64,000 nucleotides of DNA from Sphaerospermopsis aphanizomenoides BCCUSP55 (GTDB lineage Bacteria; Cyanobacteriota; Cyanobacteriia; Cyanobacteriales; Nostocaceae): contig NZ_LUFH02000004.1 in NCBI RefSeq assembly GCF_001586785.1, positions 1-64,000 on the forward strand, in the 5' to 3' direction. Below the pieces are notes generated by a model. It saw only the letters and a program-made list of their open reading frames with translations, did not search any database and had not been told where the DNA came from. Positions 47,907 through 58,510 of the stretch are shown here, one piece after another. How positions within the stretch are numbered: the stretch's first letter is position 1; each line of letters opens with the position of its first letter. Both the position numbers and the translations under genes were made by a program.

Positions 47907-49046
47907 GTGACTAATATAACTTTGGATACTATTCTTGATCGTTCCTTGCTAGGGTCTAATATATCACCATCTGAGGCAGTAGTTTTATTAAAACAAACTG
48001 ACCCCCAAGCTGTAAATGCTATTCGGGCTACAGCTGACCAACTGCGACAAAGACAAGCTGGTGAGACCGTAACTTACGTAATAAACCGTAATATTAATTT
48101 TACTAACATTTGTGAGCAGCACTGTAGTTTTTGTGCATTCAGACGAGATGATGGTGATACGGATGCTTACTGGTTAGATTGGGCGCAAATTTTGGAAAAA
48201 TCTACAGATGCAGTGCATAGAGGTGCAACAGAAATCTGTATGCAAGGGGGATTAAACCCACAAGCGCAAATCAACGGTAAATCCTTACCCTATTACATAA
48301 AGTTAGTAGAAACCATTAAACAGGAGTTTCCTCAGCTACATTTACACGCTTTTTCTCCCCAGGAAGTGCAATTTATTGCCAGACTTGACGGAATTTCCTA
48401 CACTGAAGTGATAGCAGCTTTGCGGGATGCAGGTGTGGGTTCGATGCCGGGAACAGCAGCCGAGGTGTTAGATGATGAAGTCAGAAGGGTATTGTGTCCC
48501 GAAAAAATTGATACTGAAACTTGGTTAGAAATTGTCAGTACGGCTCACAAACTAGGTGTACCCACCACCAGTACAATGTTATCTGGGCATATTGAAACTC
48601 CAGAACAGCAAACTGCACATTTAGAAAAATTGCGATCGCTCCAACAAACAGCCTTAGAAAAAGGATATCCAGCCAGAATAACAGAATTTATCATCTTACC
48701 CTTCGTTGGTCAAGAAGCGCCTAAATCTTTACGTCGTCGGGTAGGAAGAGATCAACCAGTGTTAGCAGATGCGCTTTTATTAACTGCGGTAGCGCGGATA
48801 TTCTTAGGAAACTACATACCTAACCATCAACCCAGTTGGGTAAAATTGGGTCTTGCGGGTGCGACAGAAGCTTTAACTTGGGGTTGTAATGATATTGGTG
48901 GCACATTGATGGAAGAACACATTACCACAATGGCAGGAGCGATCGGTGGTACGTGCATGGAAGTCGAAACTCTACAAAGTGCGATCGCTTCCCTTAACAG
49001 ACCTTACCAGCAACGAAATACTTTGTATCAGGGTTTAGGGGTGTAG
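47907..49046 (+). CDS. cofH: FO synthase subunit CofH
   Basis: 379 aa from a GTG start. Radical-SAM enzyme that joins a tyrosine-derived fragment to the flavin precursor to form 7,8-didemethyl-8-hydroxy-5-deazariboflavin, an antenna for some photolyases. [12 protein letters not shown] gives CxxxCxxC near residues 69-76; [10 protein letters not shown] and [10 protein letters not shown] are typical. CofG is not in this window. The last codons (GLGV and stop) come from a GGGTGTAG tandem repeat. Confidence 0.92.
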
Positions 49047-49196
49047 GGTGTAGGGGTGTAGGGTGTAGGGTTGAGGGGAGAAAATTTACCAATTACCAAT
49101 TACCAATTACCAATTACCAATTACCAATTACCAATTACCAATTACCCATTACCCATTACCAATTACCAATTACCCATTACCCATTACCCATTAAAG
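49027..49196. repeat. GGGTGTAG and CCAATTA arrays
   Basis: GGGTGTA units overlap the cofH stop (about 49036-49075), then about 14 units of ACCAATT/ACCCATT run to the 3' end of cnfR (49087-49194). There are no spacers, so it is not a CRISPR array. Confidence 0.95.
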
Positions 49197-50783
49197 TATA
49201 TTTAGAACTTTCCGCAATAATGCCTGGTCTTCTATTTTGGGTTTGAGACGACCATTTTCGACATCACGAATCCAACTTTGGCTTTTACCCGTGAGTTTTG
49301 CTAGTTCTCTTTGAGAAATATTCAGGTTTTTACGTGCTTGCAGAACTTGTTCAGCTAATAAATCATCTGTGGGTTTGAGAATTCGTTTATTTGTAATAAT
49401 GGTACGGCGTTTTTTCTTCTCTACTACTGAATTTTGCTGTTGCCATTCTAGAGGCAGTTCAAAGGATAAAATCCTGGCATTCATCAGTAAATTCCACTTA
49501 CCACGGGGTCCACTATCTGTCAGACGATGATCACCACCACCATCATTAATCCAAAATTCCAACGCCTCATCTGGATCTTCAGGAATATCAACTAATTTCG
49601 CCCACAAAGGTTGAATTTCTGGTGGGTAGGTAATTGGGTCAAAAACAGGTTTGATGCCATAGTGATTGAGAACTTCCAAATCGTTTTCAAATGTTCGTAA
49701 TAGGCGCTTACGTTCATCTCTTAATCTGGAAGCGAGGTTCATTTTTTCCTCACCATAAGCAACACGCAGTAAAGTAGGAACGGTAATGCGTTGTTCTCTA
49801 CCCATTTTGGTTTTAAATAACAACCATAACATTAGTCTAACAGCACCTTCATGTTGCTGCCAAAGACTCATAACTGTAGTTAATAACGTTTTGGGTAGAC
49901 TACCATATTGATAGAATCCGGTACGTTCTTTACAGCCTTGTTTATTTAAGAAATGTTGCGCCCAGATGCCAGCTTTAATTTTAAATGTTAGGCCAATCAG
50001 ATATTTGCACCCTAATTCATCTTCTTGAAAATGGTGCTTAATATCTATTAAATGCCATAGGCGACTATTTGTGGCAGAAAATCCGGGAACTTTACCCCGT
50101 GGCAGCCAGTCAATAGAAACAATCAAAGAGCAAGCTTGCTGAACGATGTTCTTAATTAAACATAGCTTGGCAACTTTATTTAGGTCTTTGCGTTTTTCTA
50201 ACCCCAAGTATTTTTCAATTTGGCGTTCATCAATGACAAACTCCTGTTCCCAAGGTTGCTCTAAAGTTGTAGCATGGGCAGCAAAAATCAGATGAATACC
50301 AGCAGATCGAATATCGAGATTTTCGACAGCTTGTAAATCTTGAGCCAGATTGTTAACTTGAAATGGGTCTTGGATGTGAAAAGAAATTGCCCCCCGACCT
50401 TGATTAACTTGTCGGCTATAATGTAAATTACCTCCTGCATCTGTCTCCCAATTTAATGATTTACGTTGCGCTAGTAGATTGCAAGCTTCCCAAATAACTA
50501 TTGCCGAAGCAAATGGGGTATTCTTGCCATTGGAAAACAAATCAGGACTGGTAGGTTCTCGCGCTTCAACTTTGCATCTGCCTTTTTTCGCTTGCCAAGG
50601 GATAGGAGCGTTTTTTGGACAAGCAATTACACATTGTGGTTCTGGATAATAACCCTCACAATTGTTACACAGACAAGGATCAATCCAATATTCATTATTT
50701 TCGATTTTGATTGCACCCGTAGGACATTGGGGGCGGCAGTTATCACATCCAGAGCAATTTTTGTTAGGAATAGTATAAGGCAT
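49191..50783 (-). CDS. cnfR: Nitrogen-fixation regulator CnfR (PatB)
   Basis: 530 aa from ATG 50783 (MPYTIPNKNCSGCDNC), chosen over an ATG 28 codons upstream because GGAAG lies nine bases before it and the first cluster motif is then N-terminal. Two 4Fe-4S motifs (CSGCDNCRPQCPTGAI; CLCNNCEGYYPEPQCVIACP), a long middle domain, and a C-terminal XRE-type helix-turn-helix (LNISQRELAKLTGKSQSW). CnfR activates nif genes under low oxygen; Anabaena patB mutants show abnormal heterocyst patterns. It is divergent from fdxB, the gene order known around patB in Anabaena. Confidence 0.95.
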   Translation of the reverse strand: MPYTIPNKNCSGCDNCRPQCPTGAIKIENNEYWIDPCLCNNCEGYYPEPQCVIACPKNAPIPWQAKKGRCKVEAREPTSPDLFSNGKNTPFASAIVIWEACNLLAQRKSLNWETDAGGNLHYSRQVNQGRGAISFHIQDPFQVNNLAQDLQAVENLDIRSAGIHLIFAAHATTLEQPWEQEFVIDERQIEKYLGLEKRKDLNKVAKLCLIKNIVQQACSLIVSIDWLPRGKVPGFSATNSRLWHLIDIKHHFQEDELGCKYLIGLTFKIKAGIWAQHFLNKQGCKERTGFYQYGSLPKTLLTTVMSLWQQHEGAVRLMLWLLFKTKMGREQRITVPTLLRVAYGEEKMNLASRLRDERKRLLRTFENDLEVLNHYGIKPVFDPITYPPEIQPLWAKLVDIPEDPDEALEFWINDGGGDHRLTDSGPRGKWNLLMNARILSFELPLEWQQQNSVVEKKKRRTIITNKRILKPTDDLLAEQVLQARKNLNISQRELAKLTGKSQSWIRDVENGRLKPKIEDQALLRKVLNIL

Positions 50784-51837
50784 AAGGCTTCTTCCTAGTC
50801 TAATTGCTGAGATGTTTGGCTCAAGTCTCCCCTCGATGTCTCCTCTTGATTCATAACTTGCTACCAAATTATCTCCATGACAAGAAAAGTTTTTCTCGCC
50901 TCACTTATCAGTTATCAGTTATCAGTTACCAGTGATCAGTTATCATCAGTTGTCAGTGATAGCGGAAGGCAAGAGGCAAAAGGCAAAAGTAAAACCCTTG
51001 TTATCTATCACTAGTTTTTAGCTTTTGAGAATGTCCTAATCGCCTTGTCTACAGCTATATAATTAGTTATTTTCTCCTTACTTCTGCGTGGGAGTATCCT
51101 GCTTTACTGACTGCTGATTTCTCGATTCTGTTGTATTTTCTGTCACTGATTTTAGATCCTGGAAATTAGGGCTTCATTGCTTCTTTATTAACTATACATT
51201 TCATAAAGATTTCGCTAAGTTTGTTCAGAATGAGCTTAGGGAGATTTCTTAATATTTGTGTTGTTTGTTGACTGGAAATCCTCACTGAAAGTGTTTTCAG
51301 ATAACATTTCACCAAGGTCAAATTGTTTTAATTTAGTATTTTGATTTTCTTGACAGTTAATATAAATTTGTGCCTGGTTATAAAAATTACATTTTTGATC
51401 ATAAATAAACTCTTTGGCATCAACTTAGTTAATGCAAAAATATAACTTTTATTCTCATTGCATTTGTATAGATGTTTGCATATAAAGTAACTAAAACTTA
51501 TGTTGTATCTGTAAATACGGTTGTATGATATTTTCACTTCATATTTTCCAGATTATATTTGCGACATAATATCAAAACATAAATTATTGCTTGGCTTAAT
51601 TGATTAACAATCTAATTCTTTAGATATAGCCGGATAGCAAGATGTGTAGCCATTCTATTTATTAATAATAATTAGCAGTTATCCTTTTGGATAAATTCCT
51701 ATCAATTGATATTATTTAGCAAGTCAGCAAAACTTGATAAAAAAGTTAATTTTTGTCATCAAAATATTCAAATCTTAGGCTAGTATTAAGATTAAATCAC
51801 CAACTAATTTATAAGCGAAATTGCTGAGGATAGATTC
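50784..51837. other. cnfR-fdxB divergent control region; no gene seen
   Basis: About 1 kb. Contains AGTTATC-type repeats (about 50908-50960), a second copy of a 31-bp dispersed repeat (51030-51060) and AT-rich sequence up to fdxB. One TGAGGAT box occurs on the minus strand near 51272-51278. No GTA-N8-TAC NtcA site was found by eye in either promoter area, but I could not search exhaustively. Confidence 0.6.
51030..51060. repeat. 31-bp dispersed repeat, copy 2
   Basis: AATGTCCTAATCGCCTTG and the following bases match 6187-6217 with two substitutions. It lies about 250 bp upstream of the cnfR start. Confidence 0.65.
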
Positions 51838-52131
51838 ATGGCGACATTGACAGGCGTAACATTTGGCGGTAAGACTTGGACACCTAAATTTGCCCAAGAA
51901 ATTGACAAAGATAAATGTATCGGTTGTGGCAGATGTATTAAAGTATGTGGTCACAATGTATTAGGCTTGATGGCATTGAATGAAGAAGGTGAATTCGTAG
52001 AAGATGAAGATGATGAAGAAATTGAACGCAAAGTCATGACAGTTGCACATCCAGAAAACTGTATTGGTTGTGAAGCTTGTTCGAGAATTTGTCCCAAGAA
52101 CTGTTATTCTCATACAACATTAGACAACTAA
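51838..52131 (+). CDS. fdxB: Ferredoxin III, nif-specific
   Basis: 97 aa with two 4Fe-4S motifs: [17 protein letters not shown] and [16 protein letters not shown]. The acidic linker (EDEDDEE) and length are those of FdxB, an electron carrier in nitrogen-fixing cells. AGGATAGATTC precedes the ATG. It is divergent from cnfR and 505 bp before coxB. Confidence 0.95.
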
Positions 52132-52636
52132 TACTTGTGGGAATTAGCGACATTGTTTAATTCCGTAAATACACGAAAGAAGTGATTAGAGGGGAATACT
52201 TTATTTTTAATATCAGTAAGTAAAAGTTCATAGTAAACAAAAATATAAATCGTCAATTGTTATTTTTAAACACAATCATGCCACCATATTCCTGATTTAT
52301 TTAGAAAATCGGGAATATTAGTATTTTCAGAAAAAAGGTTATGAAAAAATCTGGAAGTTTACCCCATTTTTGGTGATGTACAAGTTAGAACTTGAATAAG
52401 TGGAAATCAAAAACACCGCTGAAATTGTTAGACCTAGTAGCCATGAATAAATTTTTTGATATTTTTGGCTAGGGATAAATATCAACAACAGGATGCAATC
52501 TCCTAAATCAGTGAACAATACAGCAGAGTTCAGGAGTCAGGAGTCAGGAGTAAAACTGGCTTTTTGTCCAGCGTTGAATTTAGATCCTGTACCTTATTGA
52601 TCACTGGTAACTGATAACTAAGAAAAAGTAGGTAGT
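52132..52636. other. fdxB-coxB intergenic region
   Basis: AT-rich, no gene seen. CAGGAGT heptamers at about 52530-52553 precede the cox operon. It may hold the cox promoter; no known site was recognised. Confidence 0.6.
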
Positions 52637-53614
52637 ATGCAAAAAGTTCCTGTGTCGTTGTGGACGCTGTTAGCGGGGATGATAATTTCCCCGATTAGTA
52701 TTTGGATTGGTCAAAATCATCATCTACTTCCAGTACAAGCATCGCAACAAGCGCCTTTGGTAGACGGATTTTTTAATATCATGTTTACCATTGCGATCGC
52801 TCTTTTTTTAGTAGTAGAAGGAACGATTTTAATTTTCTTGTTTATCTATCGTCGTCGCCCCGGTGACAATAGTGATGGTACACCGATAGAAGGTAACTTA
52901 GCCTTAGAAATTTTTTGGACAGCAGTACCCACTGTAATTGTGGTTGGTTTGGGTATTTACAGCGTCAATATTTATAACCAAATGGGAGGTTTAGAACCAG
53001 GTAGTCATCCTCATGGCCATGTCGCTCATGTTTCCGGTACAGCGATGGCTGCTAGTATGAATGATGGTTCTCAATCTTTAACTGCTCCCAATATTGGTAT
53101 TGGTGGAAGTCCCCAAACTCAAGGTAAACCAGCAGATTTGGTAGTTGATGTCAAAGGGATTCAATTTGCATGGTTATTTAACTATCCAGAAACTGGTATT
53201 GCTGCGGGAGAACTGCACGTTCCAGTTGGTGCTGATGTGCAGTTGAATTTATCAGCAGATGATGTCATTCATTCCTTCTGGGTTCCCCAATTTCGACTCA
53301 AACAAGATGCGCTTCCTGGTATCGCTACTGAATTGCGTTTTGTGGCTACAAAACCAGGTACATATCCGGTAGTTTGTGCGGAATTATGTGGTGGTTATCA
53401 TGGTGCAATGCGATCGCAGGTTGTTGTCCACACTCAAGAAGATTTTGAAGCTTGGATAACAGAAAATCAGATTGCACAACAGCAAGGACAACCTCAAGTT
53501 GTGGCTGTAAATCCTGCTAATTTATCTACTTCTGAATTTCTTGCTCCATACATTCAGGATATGGGAGTGAGTAAAGAAAATATTGCGTCATTAGTTATCG
53601 GGAATAGGGAATAG
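52637..53614 (+). CDS. coxB: Cytochrome c oxidase subunit II (heterocyst-type)
   Basis: 325 aa. Two N-terminal membrane helices (about 44-68 and 88-106) and a periplasmic cupredoxin domain carrying the CuA site: DDVIHSFWVPQF and CAELCGGYHGAMRS (two Cys, His, Met). A His/Gly/Ser-rich insert (about 115-155) separates them. It takes electrons from a soluble donor and passes them to CoxA. Context with cnfR and fdxB matches the heterocyst cox2 operon. The last residues (GNRE) and stop arise from GGGAATA repeat. Confidence 0.93.
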   Translation: MQKVPVSLWTLLAGMIISPISIWIGQNHHLLPVQASQQAPLVDGFFNIMFTIAIALFLVVEGTILIFLFIYRRRPGDNSDGTPIEGNLALEIFWTAVPTVIVVGLGIYSVNIYNQMGGLEPGSHPHGHVAHVSGTAMAASMNDGSQSLTAPNIGIGGSPQTQGKPADLVVDVKGIQFAWLFNYPETGIAAGELHVPVGADVQLNLSADDVIHSFWVPQFRLKQDALPGIATELRFVATKPGTYPVVCAELCGGYHGAMRSQVVVHTQEDFEAWITENQIAQQQGQPQVVAVNPANLSTSEFLAPYIQDMGVSKENIASLVIGNRE

Positions 53615-53707
53615 AGAATAGGTAAATTAAACTTTTGCCTTTTTCCACTGATAAATGAAAATCCCAAATTCCCAATCCCGAATCTAAAATCTAAAATCCA
53701 ACATCGA

Positions 53708-55387
53708 ATGACACACATAGAATTTCCTCAAGATCCACCACCAGAAGAGAGTCAACAAAAAACTGTGGTAGTTGCTCATACTCAACGTCTCGCACCTTGG
53801 AAACTGAAGGACTATTTCACCTTTAATATTGACCACAAAGTTATTGGCATTCAATATTTGGTGACGGCGTTTGTATTTTATTTGATTGGTGGGTTGATGG
53901 CCATTGCTATCCGCACCGAATTAGCCACACCAGAAGCAGATTTTATTGATCCAAATCTGTACAACGCTTTCATGACCAATCATGGAACAATCATGATATT
54001 TTTATGGATTGTTCCCAGTGCAATTGGGGGATTTGGTAATTATCTAGTACCCCTAATGGTAGGTGCTAGAGATATGGCGTTCCCGAAATTAAATGCCATT
54101 GCCTTTTGGTTAAACCCACCCGCAGGTTTACTATTATTAGGTAGTTTCATATTTGGTGGTTCTCAATCAGGTTGGACAGCTTACCCACCTTTAAGTTTAA
54201 TCACTGCCAACACCGCGCAAACGATGTGGATTTTGGCGATTGTGTTGGTAGGAACTTCTTCAATTTTAGGTTCATTAAACTTTGTCATCACCATTTTGAT
54301 GATGAAAGTTCCCAGTATGAAATGGGATCAAGTTCCTTTATTTTGCTGGGCAATTTTAGCAACTTCTATCCTCGCACTTTTATCTACACCAGTATTAGCA
54401 GCAGGTTTAATTCTGCTGTTATTTGACATTAACTTTGGCACTTCCTTCTTCAAACCAGATGCTGGTGGTAACGTCGTTATTTACCAACATTTATTCTGGT
54501 TTTATTCCCATCCGGCGGTTTATTTAATGATTCTGCCAATTTTTGGGATCATGTCAGAAGTAATTCCCACCCATGCACGCAAACCAATTTTTGGATATAA
54601 AGCGATCGCCTATTCCAGTGTCGCTATCTGCGTCGTTGGTTTATTTGTCTGGGTACACCATATGTTCACCAGTGGTACACCCGGTTGGATGCGGATGTTT
54701 TTCACCATTTCTACATTAATAGTAGCCGTTCCCACAGGTGTAAAAATCTTCGGTTGGGTTGCAACCCTTTGGGGTGGAAAAATCCGTTTTACCACAGCCA
54801 TGTTATTTGCCATTGGCTTATTATCCATGTTCGTCATGGGTGGTTTAAGCGGCGTAACAATGGGAACAGCACCCTTTGATGTTCATGTCCACGACACATA
54901 TTATGTAGTCGCACATTTCCACTACGTTTTATTTGGTGGTTCCGTCTTTGGTATTTACGCAGGTATCTATCATTGGTTCCCCAAAATGACCGGCAGAATG
55001 ATGAACGAAACCTGGGGAAGAGTTCACTTTGCCCTGACTTTAATTGGTACTAACTTAACATTCCTACCCATGCATGAATTGGGTTTACAAGGAATGCCTC
55101 GCCGAGTTGCTATGTATGACCCCCAATTTATTAGCTTAAATCAGCTTTGTACCATTGGCGCATTCATTTTGGGTATTTCTGTAATTCCCTTTGCTTGGAA
55201 CGCTATTACTAGCTGGAAAAAAGGTGAATTTGCAGGTGATAATCCTTGGGAAAGTTTAACTTTGGAATGGACTACTAGTTCTCCTCCAATGATTGAAAAC
55301 TGGGACGTTTTACCTGTTGTCACTCATGGTCCTTATGACTATGGTCAAATTCATGATCAATCTTCGTCAGTGACTGAGGCTGTTTAA
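53708..55387 (+). CDS. coxA: Cytochrome c oxidase subunit I
   Basis: 559 aa with twelve membrane helices. Heme and copper ligands are visible in NHGTIMIFLW, SHPAVYLMILP, WVHHMFTSG and AHFHYVLFGG. The motif FYSHPAVY (no Glu in the HPEVY position, Tyr-Ser before it) marks an A2-type heme-copper oxidase. It reduces O2 to water and pumps protons; in heterocysts this respiration protects nitrogenase. It follows coxB by 93 bp. Confidence 0.95.
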   Translation: MTHIEFPQDPPPEESQQKTVVVAHTQRLAPWKLKDYFTFNIDHKVIGIQYLVTAFVFYLIGGLMAIAIRTELATPEADFIDPNLYNAFMTNHGTIMIFLWIVPSAIGGFGNYLVPLMVGARDMAFPKLNAIAFWLNPPAGLLLLGSFIFGGSQSGWTAYPPLSLITANTAQTMWILAIVLVGTSSILGSLNFVITILMMKVPSMKWDQVPLFCWAILATSILALLSTPVLAAGLILLLFDINFGTSFFKPDAGGNVVIYQHLFWFYSHPAVYLMILPIFGIMSEVIPTHARKPIFGYKAIAYSSVAICVVGLFVWVHHMFTSGTPGWMRMFFTISTLIVAVPTGVKIFGWVATLWGGKIRFTTAMLFAIGLLSMFVMGGLSGVTMGTAPFDVHVHDTYYVVAHFHYVLFGGSVFGIYAGIYHWFPKMTGRMMNETWGRVHFALTLIGTNLTFLPMHELGLQGMPRRVAMYDPQFISLNQLCTIGAFILGISVIPFAWNAITSWKKGEFAGDNPWESLTLEWTTSSPPMIENWDVLPVVTHGPYDYGQIHDQSSSVTEAV

Positions 55388-55525
55388 AACGCAGAGGTAC
55401 GCGGAGGTTAGCGCAGAGGTACGCGGAGTGTTTTTGAGGATTATTTTTTCTACCTTTGCGCTTATCCTGCGGGTTCTCCTGACGGAGATTGTGGAAGAGA
55501 AATAATAATTTATTAGGTAAATGAA
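55388..55525. repeat. Dispersed repeat inside the cox operon
   Basis: ACGCAGAGGTACGCGGAGG-type units (about 55388-55430) and a palindromic piece (about 55460-55495) lie between coxA and coxC. Related units occur at 60585-60630. Confidence 0.7.
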
Positions 55526-56122
55526 ATGACTGCAATTACAACAGGTGAACATCACGAAGATGGACACGAACATCATCCAGATTTAAGAGTTTGGGGACTG
55601 TTGACTTTTCTGGTTTCTGAATCTTTGATGTTTGGCGGATTTTTTGCCACTTATTTGTTTTTTAAAGGTACTACTGCAGTTTGGCCACCAGAAGGAACTG
55701 AGGTAGAATTATTTGTACCCACAATTAACACTATCATTCTTGTTTCTAGTAGTTTTGTCATTCACTTTGGTGATATGGCAATTAAAAGAAATAGTGTGGG
55801 TTGGATGCGGTTTTGGTATTTTATTACCGCAGTTATGGGTGCTGTATTTTTAGCAGGCCAGGTTTATGAATACATGAATTTGGGTTATGGATTAACCACC
55901 AATCTTTTCGCTAATTGCTTTTATTTAATGACAGGTTTCCACGGGTTGCACGTATTTGTGGGACTGTTATTAATTTTGGGTGTGTTATGGCGTTCTTTCC
56001 GTCGTGGTCATTATTCTGCTACTAAACACACTGGCATAGAAATGGCAGAAATTTACTGGCACTTTGTTGATATCATTTGGATTGTTCTCTTCACTTTGGT
56101 TTACATCCTCAACGCATTTTAA
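55526..56122 (+). CDS. coxC: Cytochrome c oxidase subunit III
   Basis: 198 aa, five membrane helices, the short bacterial form of subunit III. Motifs: WGLLTFLVSESLMFGGFFATY at the N-terminus, MTGFHGLHVFVGLLLI and YWHFVDIIWIVLFT near the end, with the conserved acidic and His residues. It stabilises CoxA. Third gene of the coxBAC set. Confidence 0.95.
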   Translation: MTAITTGEHHEDGHEHHPDLRVWGLLTFLVSESLMFGGFFATYLFFKGTTAVWPPEGTEVELFVPTINTIILVSSSFVIHFGDMAIKRNSVGWMRFWYFITAVMGAVFLAGQVYEYMNLGYGLTTNLFANCFYLMTGFHGLHVFVGLLLILGVLWRSFRRGHYSATKHTGIEMAEIYWHFVDIIWIVLFTLVYILNAF

Positions 56123-56327
56123 TTTGGTAATAGGTAATTGGTAATTGGTAATTATGCATCTGTTACCTCTTACCTTCTCATACATCATTCACAATTATTA
56201 AAACATCATCCAATCACATCCTGTAAATCCTTAAATCCTGGACATCCTGATTCTGACAAAATCAAAATTCTGAAAATATTTAAATCTTGTAAATCCTGAT
56301 GCAGACAATTTATCATGTTTCAAGATT

Positions 56328-56813
56328 ATGCAAACTAACCAAAACAAACTCTCCTGGTTTGACGTATCCGATGATGTCAAGGAATTATTAATATTAGCTG
56401 CACAAACCTGGGAAAATTCAGAAGTTTCAGAAAAATATATGCAGCAAGCTTTAGCTAAAACCGGAGATAACACAGATATTTTAGTTGCGGCTTATAGATA
56501 TTTTTATTACAAAAATAATTATTGTTTAGCACTGACAACAGCAGAGAAAATAATTGCTAAAATTAGAGCAGTCGAGAAATTACCCGATAAGTGGGAAGAA
56601 CTAAAACCTATCTTAGTTCAACGACAACAAGAAACCCAAATCAGATTGTTCTTAAATGCTTATGCTGCTTCTGGTTTAGTGTTAGCTAAACTAGGAAAAA
56701 TAGAACAAGCTAAAGAAATCAGTACCAGAATTAAAGGTATTGATAACAAAAATGATTTTGGTGCTGGTATTCTTCTAGATATTTTAACCCGTCCACCAGA
56801 AGAAGACGAATAA
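56328..56813 (+). CDS. Helical-repeat (TPR-like) protein
   Basis: 161 aa, all helical. A pair of TPR-like helices is seen at about 24-62 (AAQTWENSEVSEKYMQQALAK), and a second at about 110-140 (YAASGLVLAKLGKIEQAKEI). It has an acidic tail (PPEEDE). A similar gene follows the cox2 operon in Anabaena, from memory. A scaffold or assembly role near nitrogenase or oxidase is possible but unproven. Confidence 0.75.
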   Translation: MQTNQNKLSWFDVSDDVKELLILAAQTWENSEVSEKYMQQALAKTGDNTDILVAAYRYFYYKNNYCLALTTAEKIIAKIRAVEKLPDKWEELKPILVQRQQETQIRLFLNAYAASGLVLAKLGKIEQAKEISTRIKGIDNKNDFGAGILLDILTRPPEEDE

Positions 56814-56879
56814 TTCGTAATTCGTAATTCGTAATTCGTAAAAACTATTCTTTATTACCTAATCACCGAATTAATCATC

Positions 56880-57050
56880 ATGAACAATTGGTTTTCTACC
56901 CGAATTTCTGGTTACACTTTGTCAATATCCACTAATAATAATATTCTCTTCCCCGGATTGCCTGAAACTCCCTCAACTCCTGTAACTAAAAACCCTCAAA
57001 CCAATCCTCCTATCCTTTATTTACCTAACTATTCAAAATTTACGCTGTAG
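56880..57050 (+). CDS. Possible small protein, 56 aa
   Basis: Open frame between the TPR-like and cupin genes, ending six bases before the cupin ATG. It starts MNNWFSTRISGYTLSI and is rich in Asn, Thr and Pro, ending PNYSKFTL. There is no clear ribosome site and no family. The position makes co-translation possible; it may also be chance. Confidence 0.3.
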   Translation: MNNWFSTRISGYTLSISTNNNILFPGLPETPSTPVTKNPQTNPPILYLPNYSKFTL

Positions 57051-57055
57051 AAATT

Positions 57056-57667
57056 ATGCAAGGTAAGGATTGGTTTGTCGGTGGAGATGGACAGCATCAA
57101 GTCTGTAAATCAGCGAGAGAATGGGATTTATTACGTGATAATTATCGCCTATATCGGTTTCTGACCGAGGTTGAAGATGTCCTTAATCATGTTGAGGATG
57201 AATCAACAAGTCTCCCAGAACTGAGAATCTTAGTTAGGCGATTAATTGTCAATTCCTATTGGATACAAAGTCAATTTTTACAACCCGATCCAAAAACCGG
57301 AACATCAGTTTTATTATTATACGATGAATTAGGATTTCCCTTAACTGTGCAAACAGTCACATTTGCACCAGGGACAACTTCTAATATTCATAATCATGGA
57401 ACATGGGGAATAGTTGCCATATTAAAAGGCCAGGAAAAAAATACATTTTGGCGAAGAAATCCTACACCAGAACATCCTGATCAAATTGAGAAAGTAGGAG
57501 AACTGGATTTATATCCCGGAGACTTAATTAGTTTTACCCCGGAGACAATACATCATGTGCAGTCAATTAGTAAAGAACCAACAGTTACATTTAATATTTA
57601 TGGAGAAACTGACCCAAAATACAGATTTGAATTTGATGTAATTAATCATATTGCTAAAAAATTTTAA
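57056..57667 (+). CDS. Cupin protein, cysteine-dioxygenase-like
   Basis: 203 aa. The cupin metal motif is visible as FAPGTTSNIHNHGTWG (about 101-116) and the second as ISFTPETIHHVQSI (about 160-175), giving three His and a likely Glu or similar ligand; the overall pattern resembles cysteine/thiol dioxygenases. It probably binds iron. The substrate is not readable from sequence. Position within the nitrogen-fixation island suggests a link to sulfur or metal handling. Confidence 0.8.
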   Translation: MQGKDWFVGGDGQHQVCKSAREWDLLRDNYRLYRFLTEVEDVLNHVEDESTSLPELRILVRRLIVNSYWIQSQFLQPDPKTGTSVLLLYDELGFPLTVQTVTFAPGTTSNIHNHGTWGIVAILKGQEKNTFWRRNPTPEHPDQIEKVGELDLYPGDLISFTPETIHHVQSISKEPTVTFNIYGETDPKYRFEFDVINHIAKKF

Positions 57668-57849
57668 AAGTAGTGGCAAAAACATAAATAACAGATTATC
57701 GTGATTAATAGGTAGAAATAGGTAAAAAAATCCAGAATATTTACCTATAAATAAAGTCCATCATCTTTCATCTGCGTTCATCTGTGTTTATCTGTGTTTA
57801 ATTATTTGCCATCCAGAAATCAAACCAGAAAGTTATAGGAGAAATAGCA

Positions 57850-58326
57850 ATGGCCAGAGTAATTTTCTATGAAAAACCAGGCTGTAAAAACAATACCAGA
57901 CAAAAAGTATTACTAACAGCCGCAGGCCATCAAGTAGTAGCATATAGCCTATTAACAGAACCTTGGACTGTAGAAAGATTAAAATCATTTTTTGGCGATC
58001 GCCCCGTCATCGAATGGTTCAACAAAGCCGCACCCAGGATCAAATCTGGAGAAGTGAACCCTGAAAACATCGACGCTGACACCGCTTTAGTAATGATGCT
58101 CAGAGATCCCCTATTAATTCGTCGTCCTTTACTAGAAGTAGGGGATAAACGGGAAATAGGCTTTGATACCGAAAAAATTGATGCTTGGATCGGCTTAAAA
58201 CCCGTAGATGACTCTTTTAAAGAAATGAGTGAAAACCTAATGCAGCAAGATTTACAAGGTTGCGCTCATGGAAATAATCACGAACACCATCATCATGGTG
58301 AAGGTGGTTGTAAACATCACACTTAA
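57850..58326 (+). CDS. Nitrogenase-associated ArsC/Spx-like protein
   Basis: 158 aa. Thioredoxin-fold ArsC-like domain with a single active Cys (EKPGCKNNTRQK) and a WFNKAAPRIKSGEVNPE segment, the pattern of the nitrogenase-associated protein family (NifO-type). The C-terminus is strongly His-rich (EHHHHGEGGCKHH), a likely metal-binding tail. AGGAGAAATAGCA precedes the ATG. The stop codon TAA also forms the left flank of a MITE-like element. Confidence 0.9.
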   Translation: MARVIFYEKPGCKNNTRQKVLLTAAGHQVVAYSLLTEPWTVERLKSFFGDRPVIEWFNKAAPRIKSGEVNPENIDADTALVMMLRDPLLIRRPLLEVGDKREIGFDTEKIDAWIGLKPVDDSFKEMSENLMQQDLQGCAHGNNHEHHHHGEGGCKHHT

Positions 58327-58443
58327 ACAGGACTTACGCACAAAATTTATCATCAGGGTAGGGTGTAGGGTGTAGGGGTTTTTTCTTTTGATGAACCTAT
58401 CCTCCGAAAACCTTATTTTTTCGTTCTTTTGCGTAAGTTCTAT
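58327..58443. mobile_element. MITE-like element, copy 2
   Basis: 117 bp with terminal inverted repeats ACAGGACTTACGCA (58327-58340) and TGCGTAAGTTCTAT (58430-58443), flanked on both sides by TAA, consistent with a 3-bp target duplication that includes the stop codon of the preceding gene. It matches the reverse complement of copy 1 (20965-21114) but holds only about three CCCTACA-type units instead of seven. Confidence 0.8.
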
Positions 58444-58485
58444 TAAACATGGAAATCTAATATAACATTCAGCAGTCAGCTAATC

Positions 58486-58510
58486 AGCCCACATTCGTGG
58501 GCTTTGTTTG
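58486..58510 (+). terminator. Rho-independent terminator of the nif/cox island
   Basis: AGCCCAC-ATTC-GTGGGCT stem-loop followed by TTGTTTG. It is the clearest terminator in the window and lies just beyond the MITE, after the ArsC-like gene. Confidence 0.8.

Follow-up and report, generated by a model that had tools for sequence, protein, structure and literature searches.

A described counterpart of the locus reported here is all2512-alr2520 of Nostoc sp. PCC 7120, which holds patB (cnfR), the cox2 genes alr2514-alr2516, alr2517, the cupin gene alr2518 and the nitrogenase-associated gene alr2520 (PMC2821919, PMC7065334). Our locus lies in a stretch of 64,000 nucleotides from Sphaerospermopsis aphanizomenoides BCCUSP55 (contig NZ_LUFH02000004.1, positions 1 to 64,000), called the window below, and coordinates without a locus or contig label are positions in this window. 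As judged from its sequence, it corresponds to the cnfR-fdxB-cox2 locus that heterocyst formers conserve, with genes for a TPR-like protein, a small protein, a cupin and a NifO-type ArsC-like protein as its distal cassette. This cassette is very probably a nitrogenase accessory unit.

In 2010, patB (all2512), alr2517 (hypothetical), alr2518 (cupin 2) and alr2520 (nitrogenase-associated protein) were tabulated as genes of N2 fixers (Table 5 of PMC2821919), and strain D9, which has lost fixation, is given as lacking all four (PMC2821919). The Nostoc punctiforme identifiers in the same source (186680864 for patB; 869, 870 and 871 for the accessory genes) fit the order in the window, and this numbering suggests that no annotated protein stands between the TPR-like gene and the cupin gene in that record. 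A strain whose heterocyst genes are down-regulated shows reduced transcripts of cox2 genes and alr2520 (PMC7065334), alr2517 appears alongside the cox2 genes in a sigma-factor study (PMC4390870), and CnfR activates nif transcription in other strains (PMC8510180); expression in heterocysts is taken, for some of the genes, from published data. In the literature searched, outside which most subscription papers lie, no functional study of the TPR, cupin and NifO genes of the cassette was found.

A first-pass annotation, made from the window's letters, had described a heterocyst island with an uncharacterised module at its end. The second half of that description holds, as the accessory genes are nif-associated and without a functional study found, whereas the island itself was known from PCC 7120, with three of these genes among the N2-fixer genes of 2010 in the published table (PMC2821919). 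Identity and arrangement of the locus are therefore known; new within the literature searched are the test of co-occurrence with nif, the separability of the TPR-cupin-NifO trio, a diazotroph-only branch of the cupin, a lineage-bound His-rich tail on NifO and, above all, the small gene.

Co-occurrence with nitrogen fixation and gene order

Co-occurrence was scored in 291 cyanobacterial genomes at least 90% complete, where a diazotroph is a genome with nifH or nifB by sequence, a call of gene content. Scoring of nifH covered up to 8 candidates per genome, and nifB was tested in 40 genomes of the sample and in 193 genomes of the window's own heterocyst family (f1). An nifH above cut-off was found in 46 of the 291 genomes and a fragment in G149, which has nifB; nifB added 11 more f1 members and G110, giving 59 diazotrophs in total, 32 of them f1. 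The TPR gene was present in 39/59 diazotrophs and in 0/232 of the other cyanobacteria sampled. For NifO above cut-off, the counts were 46/59 and 0/232, all 46 carriers having nifH or nifB, and a match below cut-off occurred in G032, a genome without nifB. Accessory genes kept by non-fixers away from nif, which the first-pass annotation had named as contrary to its module, were thus found in none of the 232 genomes without nifH or nifB evidence as far as TPR and NifO are concerned. Outside f1, seven of 27 diazotrophs carry the TPR gene and 14 of 27 carry NifO; therefore, neither gene is essential for fixation.

Within f1, nifB was found in 188/193 genomes and the TPR gene in 190/193. Among the five genomes without nifB, G291 and G340 have nifH and the TPR gene, G322 has half a nifH and the TPR gene, G310 lacks nifH, the TPR gene and cnfR, and G315 lacks nifH. 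The TPR gene is also absent from G343, which has nifB and whose contig stops just beyond coxA.

Gene order was read in loci picked by their TPR match: 50 f1 loci, mostly one per genus, and the best 80 of 230 matches in named genomes. Both sets share species, so that the two counts are not independent, and the absence of cox genes was judged inside the fetched stretch. The TPR, cupin and NifO genes are adjacent and in this order in 50/50 f1 loci, and the complete order from cnfR onward is kept in 37/50. Among the named loci, the trio is in order in 79/80, the remaining one (L213) being cut by a contig end, and the complete order is found in 59/80. The observed gene order is far beyond chance, and the conservation that the first-pass annotation proposed to check is borne out in the heterocyst family. 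The tie to the oxidase, on the contrary, proved loose. Five of the 50 loci (L074, L084, L101, L103 and L104) carry the trio without coxBAC despite more than 11 kb of upstream sequence, and eight of the 80 named loci show no cox genes in 9 kb of available upstream sequence. The trio is usually, not always, behind cox2, and we count it as a unit of its own because its adjacency holds even where cox lies elsewhere.

Departures from the common layout were also recorded. Two tandem TPR-like copies precede the cupin gene in G368 (L093:7437-8450). The small genomes G046 and G227 (L069, L105), which belong to one genus, retain cox-TPR-cupin-NifO after loss of the small gene, and their cnfR is at a distant place on the chromosome. 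In G315, about 10.9 kb of DNA interrupts the cox2-type coxA near residue 90-99 (L158:6859-19458), and in the loci of G300 and G085 (L068:9221-10630, L096:9251-10642) it is present from residue 90 onward only. These states of the gene recall the heterocyst excision elements described in coxA (PMC4874684); no direct repeat of at least 11 bp was found at the L158 break in the stretches compared.

It is very unlikely that the cassette serves the oxidase by assembling or metallating cox2, with copper carried by the His-rich protein. The usual site directly behind coxC (37/50) and the position of NifO ahead of coxBAC and cnfR in G166 would suit such a role, but the trio stands without coxBAC in the 5/50 loci and the eight named loci given above, and in G164, G099 and G014 the accessory genes sit among sulfur, ferredoxin or molybdate genes. 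In G164, a non-heterocystous genome outside f1, the gene of cysteine synthase A (cysK) lies directly 5' of TPR-cupin-NifO, with fdxB, a CBS-domain protein gene and a methyltransferase gene further upstream. In G099, a fusion of molybdate permease and ATPase (modB-type) is followed by fdxB and then by the TPR gene; an ATP-binding cassette (ABC) fusion with the same two domains abuts the end of nifO in G008. The order in G014 is flavodoxin, cupin, NifO and modA, and G137 has a homocitrate-synthase-like gene nearby. The recurring themes among these neighbors are molybdenum, sulfur and nitrogenase electron donors. Of the oxygen, sulfur or metal handling that the first-pass annotation had suggested, sulfur and metal are hinted at by the cysK, modB-type and modA neighbors outside heterocyst formers.

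Two further open reading frames (ORFs) were noticed in other lineages. An 83-codon ORF lies directly 3' of the TPR gene in four non-f1 fixers (L040:7407-7658, L041:6984-7235, L043:8061-8312, L045:7563-7814), and neither Pfam nor NCBIfam gave a match for the L040 copy. A 209-codon ORF lies directly 3' of the nif-type cupin gene in three f6 fixers (L048:3215-3844, L049:16481-17110, L050:3769-4398); the L048 product is a CBS-CP12 domain protein.

Alternatively, the neighborhood could reflect shared expression, with all the genes needed late in heterocysts and the TPR, cupin and NifO proteins doing unrelated jobs in nitrogen fixation, a possible explanation with the chances clearly against it. It would account for NifO without TPR in G008, G011, G054 and others, for the cupin gene adjoining cnfR in G256, G151 and G123, for the TPR gene beside fdxB in G099, and for the published fall of cox2 transcripts together with alr2520 or alr2517 (PMC7065334, PMC4390870). 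However, the trio is still adjacent where cnfR or cox has moved, and it recurs in G164 outside f1.

The cassette genes and the rest of the locus

The small gene (56880..57050, plus strand) encodes 56 residues, Pro/Ser/Asn-rich and nearly uncharged, and its stop lies 5 bp 5' of the cupin start. Inspection of all 52 TPR-cupin gaps showed ORFs of similar length and pattern. In 30 of the 34 gaps of 150-450 bp, we found an ATG-initiated ORF of at least 45 codons with its stop at most 35 bp from the cupin start, against 0.74 in dinucleotide shuffles; L078 is a 31st member among the 34 gaps, with its stop 171 bp before the cupin gene and a hidden Markov model (HMM) E value of 2.7e-11. The proportion of nonsynonymous differences was below that of synonymous ones (pN < pS) in 61/62 pairs with at least 45% identity. 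For the 12 closest pairs, the corresponding rate ratio (dN/dS) lies at 0.13-0.32. Around the close relatives of the window itself, values are 0.35-0.76, and constraint there looks weaker. At E < 1 among 3473 short ORFs, an HMM of 19 members recovered 10 of the 11 members with Trp near the start, and also L078 and a single unrelated ORF; the reverse search recovered 10 of the 19, plus four unrelated ORFs. In the named genomes (best 80 of 230 TPR matches), the small gene is present in 70/72 suitable gaps and 70/80 loci overall. Its products average 17.8% Pro, 15.4% Ser and 4.6% charged residues, and no Pfam or NCBIfam model matched any of the 15 members tested.

An earlier view of the ORF as a chance or local feature, based on tblastn matches in six relatives only, was overturned by the gap reading and by the shuffle, dN/dS and HMM tests. 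These comparisons indicate that the ORF, which the first-pass annotation had listed as a possible 56-residue protein, is a real gene under purifying selection, with homologues in 31 of the 34 suitable gaps. On a tree of 52 concatenated TPR, cupin and NifO rows, its pattern needs four changes; the simplest reading would be one gain (branch support 100/98) and three losses, the deepest part being uncertain through long branches. The gene seems overlooked in annotation; it may or may not be among the 26 novel genes that proteogenomics of PCC 7120 has yielded (PMC8557916).

It is rather unlikely that the ORF is a leader peptide that controls translation of the cupin, its product being functionless itself. 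Such a leader would fit the stop found 2-6 bp before the cupin start in 24/30 members, the fast divergence of the sequence, and the Pro-Pro present in 20/30 members and Pro-Pro-Pro in 3. On the contrary, purifying selection along the sequence (the 61/62 pairs above) and the conservation of its ends suggest that the product is constrained, and the L078 ORF stops well before its cupin gene, at the 171 bp already given.

The cupin gene (57056..57667, plus strand, 203 residues, alr2518 type) was assigned to the thiol-dioxygenase fold by its similarity to 6xb9 and its fold. Its best solved relatives are 3-mercaptopropionate dioxygenases (6xb9: phmmer E 3.1e-13; Foldseek E 8e-13; template modelling score 0.72), and both the cupin and the TPR protein fall below every curated family cut-off. 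Known thiol dioxygenases have a Ser-His-Tyr triad and an Arg or Gln that binds the substrate. In our alignment, three His, which we take to be the metal ligands (H112, H114, H166), and the Tyr are invariant in 77/77 cupins. The presumed triad reads Thr/Ser-Asn-Tyr, with His in 1/57 nif-linked and 0/20 other cyanobacterial members, and there is no Gln at the aligned columns 84-85, presumably those of the substrate Gln, which adjoin an alignment gap. The cupin might then be no enzyme at all, acting as a sensor of O2 or thiols or as a metal-binding structural protein. We find this rather unlikely: the replacement of the triad His by Asn (54/57 and 20/20) and the absence of Gln from the aligned columns 84-85, both dependent on the alignment, favor it, while the invariant His and Tyr (77/77) and the match in fold to thiol dioxygenases argue for an enzyme.

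Cupin matches occur in 70/291 genomes, some without nif evidence. The cupin tree has 58 rows, after 32 of the 57 nif-linked copies were thinned as near-duplicates to leave 25; the distant canonical copies L161-L164, a fragmented copy in G209 and weak matches in G089, G231, G268, G004, G010 and G018 were kept out of it. A clade of 31 rows with support 100/100 contains diazotrophs only. Of these rows, 25 are labelled nif-linked (19 from f1), L054 among them although its nif genes sit on a different contig; the remaining six are unlinked copies from fixers outside f1. Outside the clade stand 27 rows, namely all 15 from genomes without nif evidence and 12 from diazotrophs. The subfamily is found in 44/59 diazotrophs, 32 of them f1 (represented in the tree by the 19 loci); the 12 non-f1 genomes all have rows of their own in the tree. 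Specificity for diazotrophs was rejected for the entire cupin family, as 14 genomes without nif evidence carry 15 copies, all outside the diazotroph clade; by this tree, one subfamily only appears to be diazotroph-specific. On this point the first-pass annotation needs correction, the cupin of its module belonging to a wider family. Some f1 genomes have a third, distant cupin (L161, L162, L163, L164) beside the nif-type copy; it has Ser-x-His, the usual motif of known thiol dioxygenases, and 24-29% identity to the query.

The NifO-type gene (57850..58326, plus strand, 158 residues, alr2520 type) matches TIGR01616 with 176.7 bits against a cut-off of 109. Lys9, Gly11, Cys12, Gln18, Arg91-Arg92-Pro93 and Cys138 are invariant in 58/58 copies. 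The active site of the arsenate reductase ArsC is Cys-X3-Arg; a classic arsenate reductase was rejected here, with position 16 being Thr, Ala, Ile or Val in 58/58 copies and position 17 being Arg in 17 and Lys in 41. After Cys138, a His-rich tail with 4-13 His is present in 51/51 f1 copies, 45 of them with a further Cys, against 0-2 His in 14/14 non-f1 copies; in 79 of the named loci (from the best 80 of 230), 78 have at least five His in the last 30 residues. The NifO-type frame of Dolichospermum sp. UHCC 0259 (L171:10569-11163) is interrupted before this tail.

The TPR-like gene (56328..56813, plus strand, 161 residues, alr2517 type) gave a TPR_8 match of E 0.01, below cut-off. Its protein is modelled as a nine-helix solenoid with a predicted local distance difference test of 92.1; the best Foldseek match has E 5e-3, with none at E 0.001, and the VIA comparison gave Z of about 12, generic for helical repeats. 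The model is consistent with a generic TPR-like fold.

Over the whole locus, the ORFs run in the order that the first-pass annotation had described, all at the places given there: cnfR on the minus strand, then on the plus strand fdxB, coxB, coxA, coxC, the TPR-like gene, the 56-codon ORF, the cupin gene and the ArsC-like gene with its His-rich tail, followed by a terminator-like hairpin. The product of cnfR (patB; 49191..50783, minus strand, longest ORF to 50867) has an XRE-type helix-turn-helix (HTH_3, 34.1 bits, above cut-off) and a ferredoxin-like part (Fer4-type matches of E 0.001, below cut-off), with full-length matches in relatives of up to 90% identity. Where it starts is not certain. 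The alignment begins no earlier than query residue 23-29 in 27 of 61 matches, which the ATG at 50783 (530 residues) would fit; others extend further upstream. In the divergent intergenic region (50784..51837), two NtcA-like GTA-N8-TAC sites lie at 51094-51107 and 51505-51518; these are weak evidence because the window count (14 against 10.7 expected) is near the chance rate. The consulted text of PMC8510180 gives no CnfR motif, and an Rfam scan of 47-60 kb gave no match.

The nif-specific ferredoxin III gene fdxB (51838..52131, plus strand) scores 140.2 bits with TIGR02936 (cut-off 80.55). It is followed by a cox2-type coxBAC (52637..56122, plus strand) identified with curated family profiles: coxB (52637-53614; TIGR02866, 169.8 bits, cut-off 147.7), coxA (53708-55387; TIGR02891, 698.1 bits, cut-off 670.75) and coxC (55526-56122; PF00510, above cut-off). 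At the other end, the hairpin at 58486-58503 (plus strand, seven pairs, five of them G-C, with a T-rich tail) tops a list of 13 terminator-like sites in the window, where shuffling expects 7.9 +/- 2.6. It is the likeliest transcript end, although other candidates exist, and the "one clear terminator" of the first-pass annotation is right on its rank and not on its being the sole candidate.

Additionally, a CofH-family radical SAM gene (47907-49046) lies directly past cnfR, adjoining the island. A second nifH of this genome is in two halves (profile 1-140 and 137-272) on contigs C230:468-887 and C227:6782-7189 (L003, L005), a state that an inserted element or a break in the assembly might explain; an intact nifH is on C133.

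Proposed role and comparison with known systems

The cassette probably helps to supply or protect nitrogenase. More specifically, it may tune the supply of molybdenum (Mo) and sulfur to nitrogenase at low O2, a tentative proposal to which we give a little less than an even chance. We infer this role because the TPR and NifO genes are bound to diazotrophs, the trio is adjacent, cysK, molybdate and modA genes recur as neighbors, Azotobacter NifO is linked to Mo distribution (PMC5249018), the cupin has a thiol-dioxygenase fold and NifO a His-rich tail. NifO, with its thioredoxin fold and two invariant Cys, would direct Mo to the cofactor of nitrogenase, the part proposed for NifO in Azotobacter, and in heterocyst formers its tail could buffer or hand over a metal. 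The cupin, if it binds Fe, might act on or sense a thiol with traces of O2, limiting the pool of free thiols from which cluster assembly draws its sulfur. The TPR protein could be a scaffold that holds the parts together, and the small protein a partner peptide, or a means to couple translation to the cupin. The neighboring oxidase would keep the cell low in O2 while the cassette tunes the Mo and sulfur supply.

Several observations weigh against this role and against a strictly nif-bound cassette. The functions of its accessory genes are predictions, and 20/59 diazotrophs lack the TPR gene and 13/59 lack NifO. G304 has nifB, cnfR, fdxB, coxBAC, the cupin gene and NifO but no TPR gene. Conversely, G315 has the TPR gene, cnfR, fdxB and the interrupted coxA, with neither nifH nor nifB detected; it counts against the nif-bound rule, with the reservation that its genome is a draft. 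Furthermore, the cupin may not turn over thiols, since its substrate and triad residues differ from those of known dioxygenases.

A bolder form of the Mo and sulfur proposal, quite unlikely in our view, would unite the TPR protein, small protein, cupin and NifO in a single complex, in which the delivery of Mo and sulfur to nitrogenase is coupled to the chemistry of O2 and thiols. The cupin would then be the first thiol-dioxygenase-fold protein devoted to nitrogen fixation, the Pro-rich subunit would have been born once in heterocyst formers, possibly from non-coding DNA, and the metal-binding tail would have been added to NifO in the heterocyst lineage.

These results matter for the full list of helper genes needed to move nitrogen fixation into oxygen-producing organisms. 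The locus itself is ordinary, and as a supply of targets for testing it is above the ordinary: in heterocyst formers the cassette is strictly nif-bound and conserved in order, and it offers four concrete targets for deletion beside the master activator CnfR. It also makes it possible to test a role in nitrogenase function for a thiol-oxygenase fold and for a NifO with a His-rich tail.

Compared with PCC 7120 all2512-alr2520, by published tables and not by sequence, there is no gene number between alr2517 and alr2518, where the window has the small gene, and by numbering an alr2519 must separate the cupin gene from alr2520. In the nif cluster of Leptolyngbya boryana, coxB2A2C2 lies just downstream of cnfR, as in the window, followed by orf159, an ORF comparable in size to the TPR protein (PMC5943405); unlike the window's organism, L. 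boryana is not a heterocyst former. The window's cupin shares the fold and the three His ligands with 3-mercaptopropionate and cysteine dioxygenases and differs from them in the Asn for the triad His, the absence of a substrate Gln at the aligned columns and an identity of about 23% over the fold. Finally, the window's NifO shares with the NifO/DraB family (Azotobacter nifBfdxN-nifOQ, Azospirillum draTGB) the ArsC-like fold family, TIGR01616 and the link to nif and Mo (PMC5249018), and it is set apart from them by its TPR and cupin partners and by its His-rich tail, a feature compared in cyanobacterial copies only.

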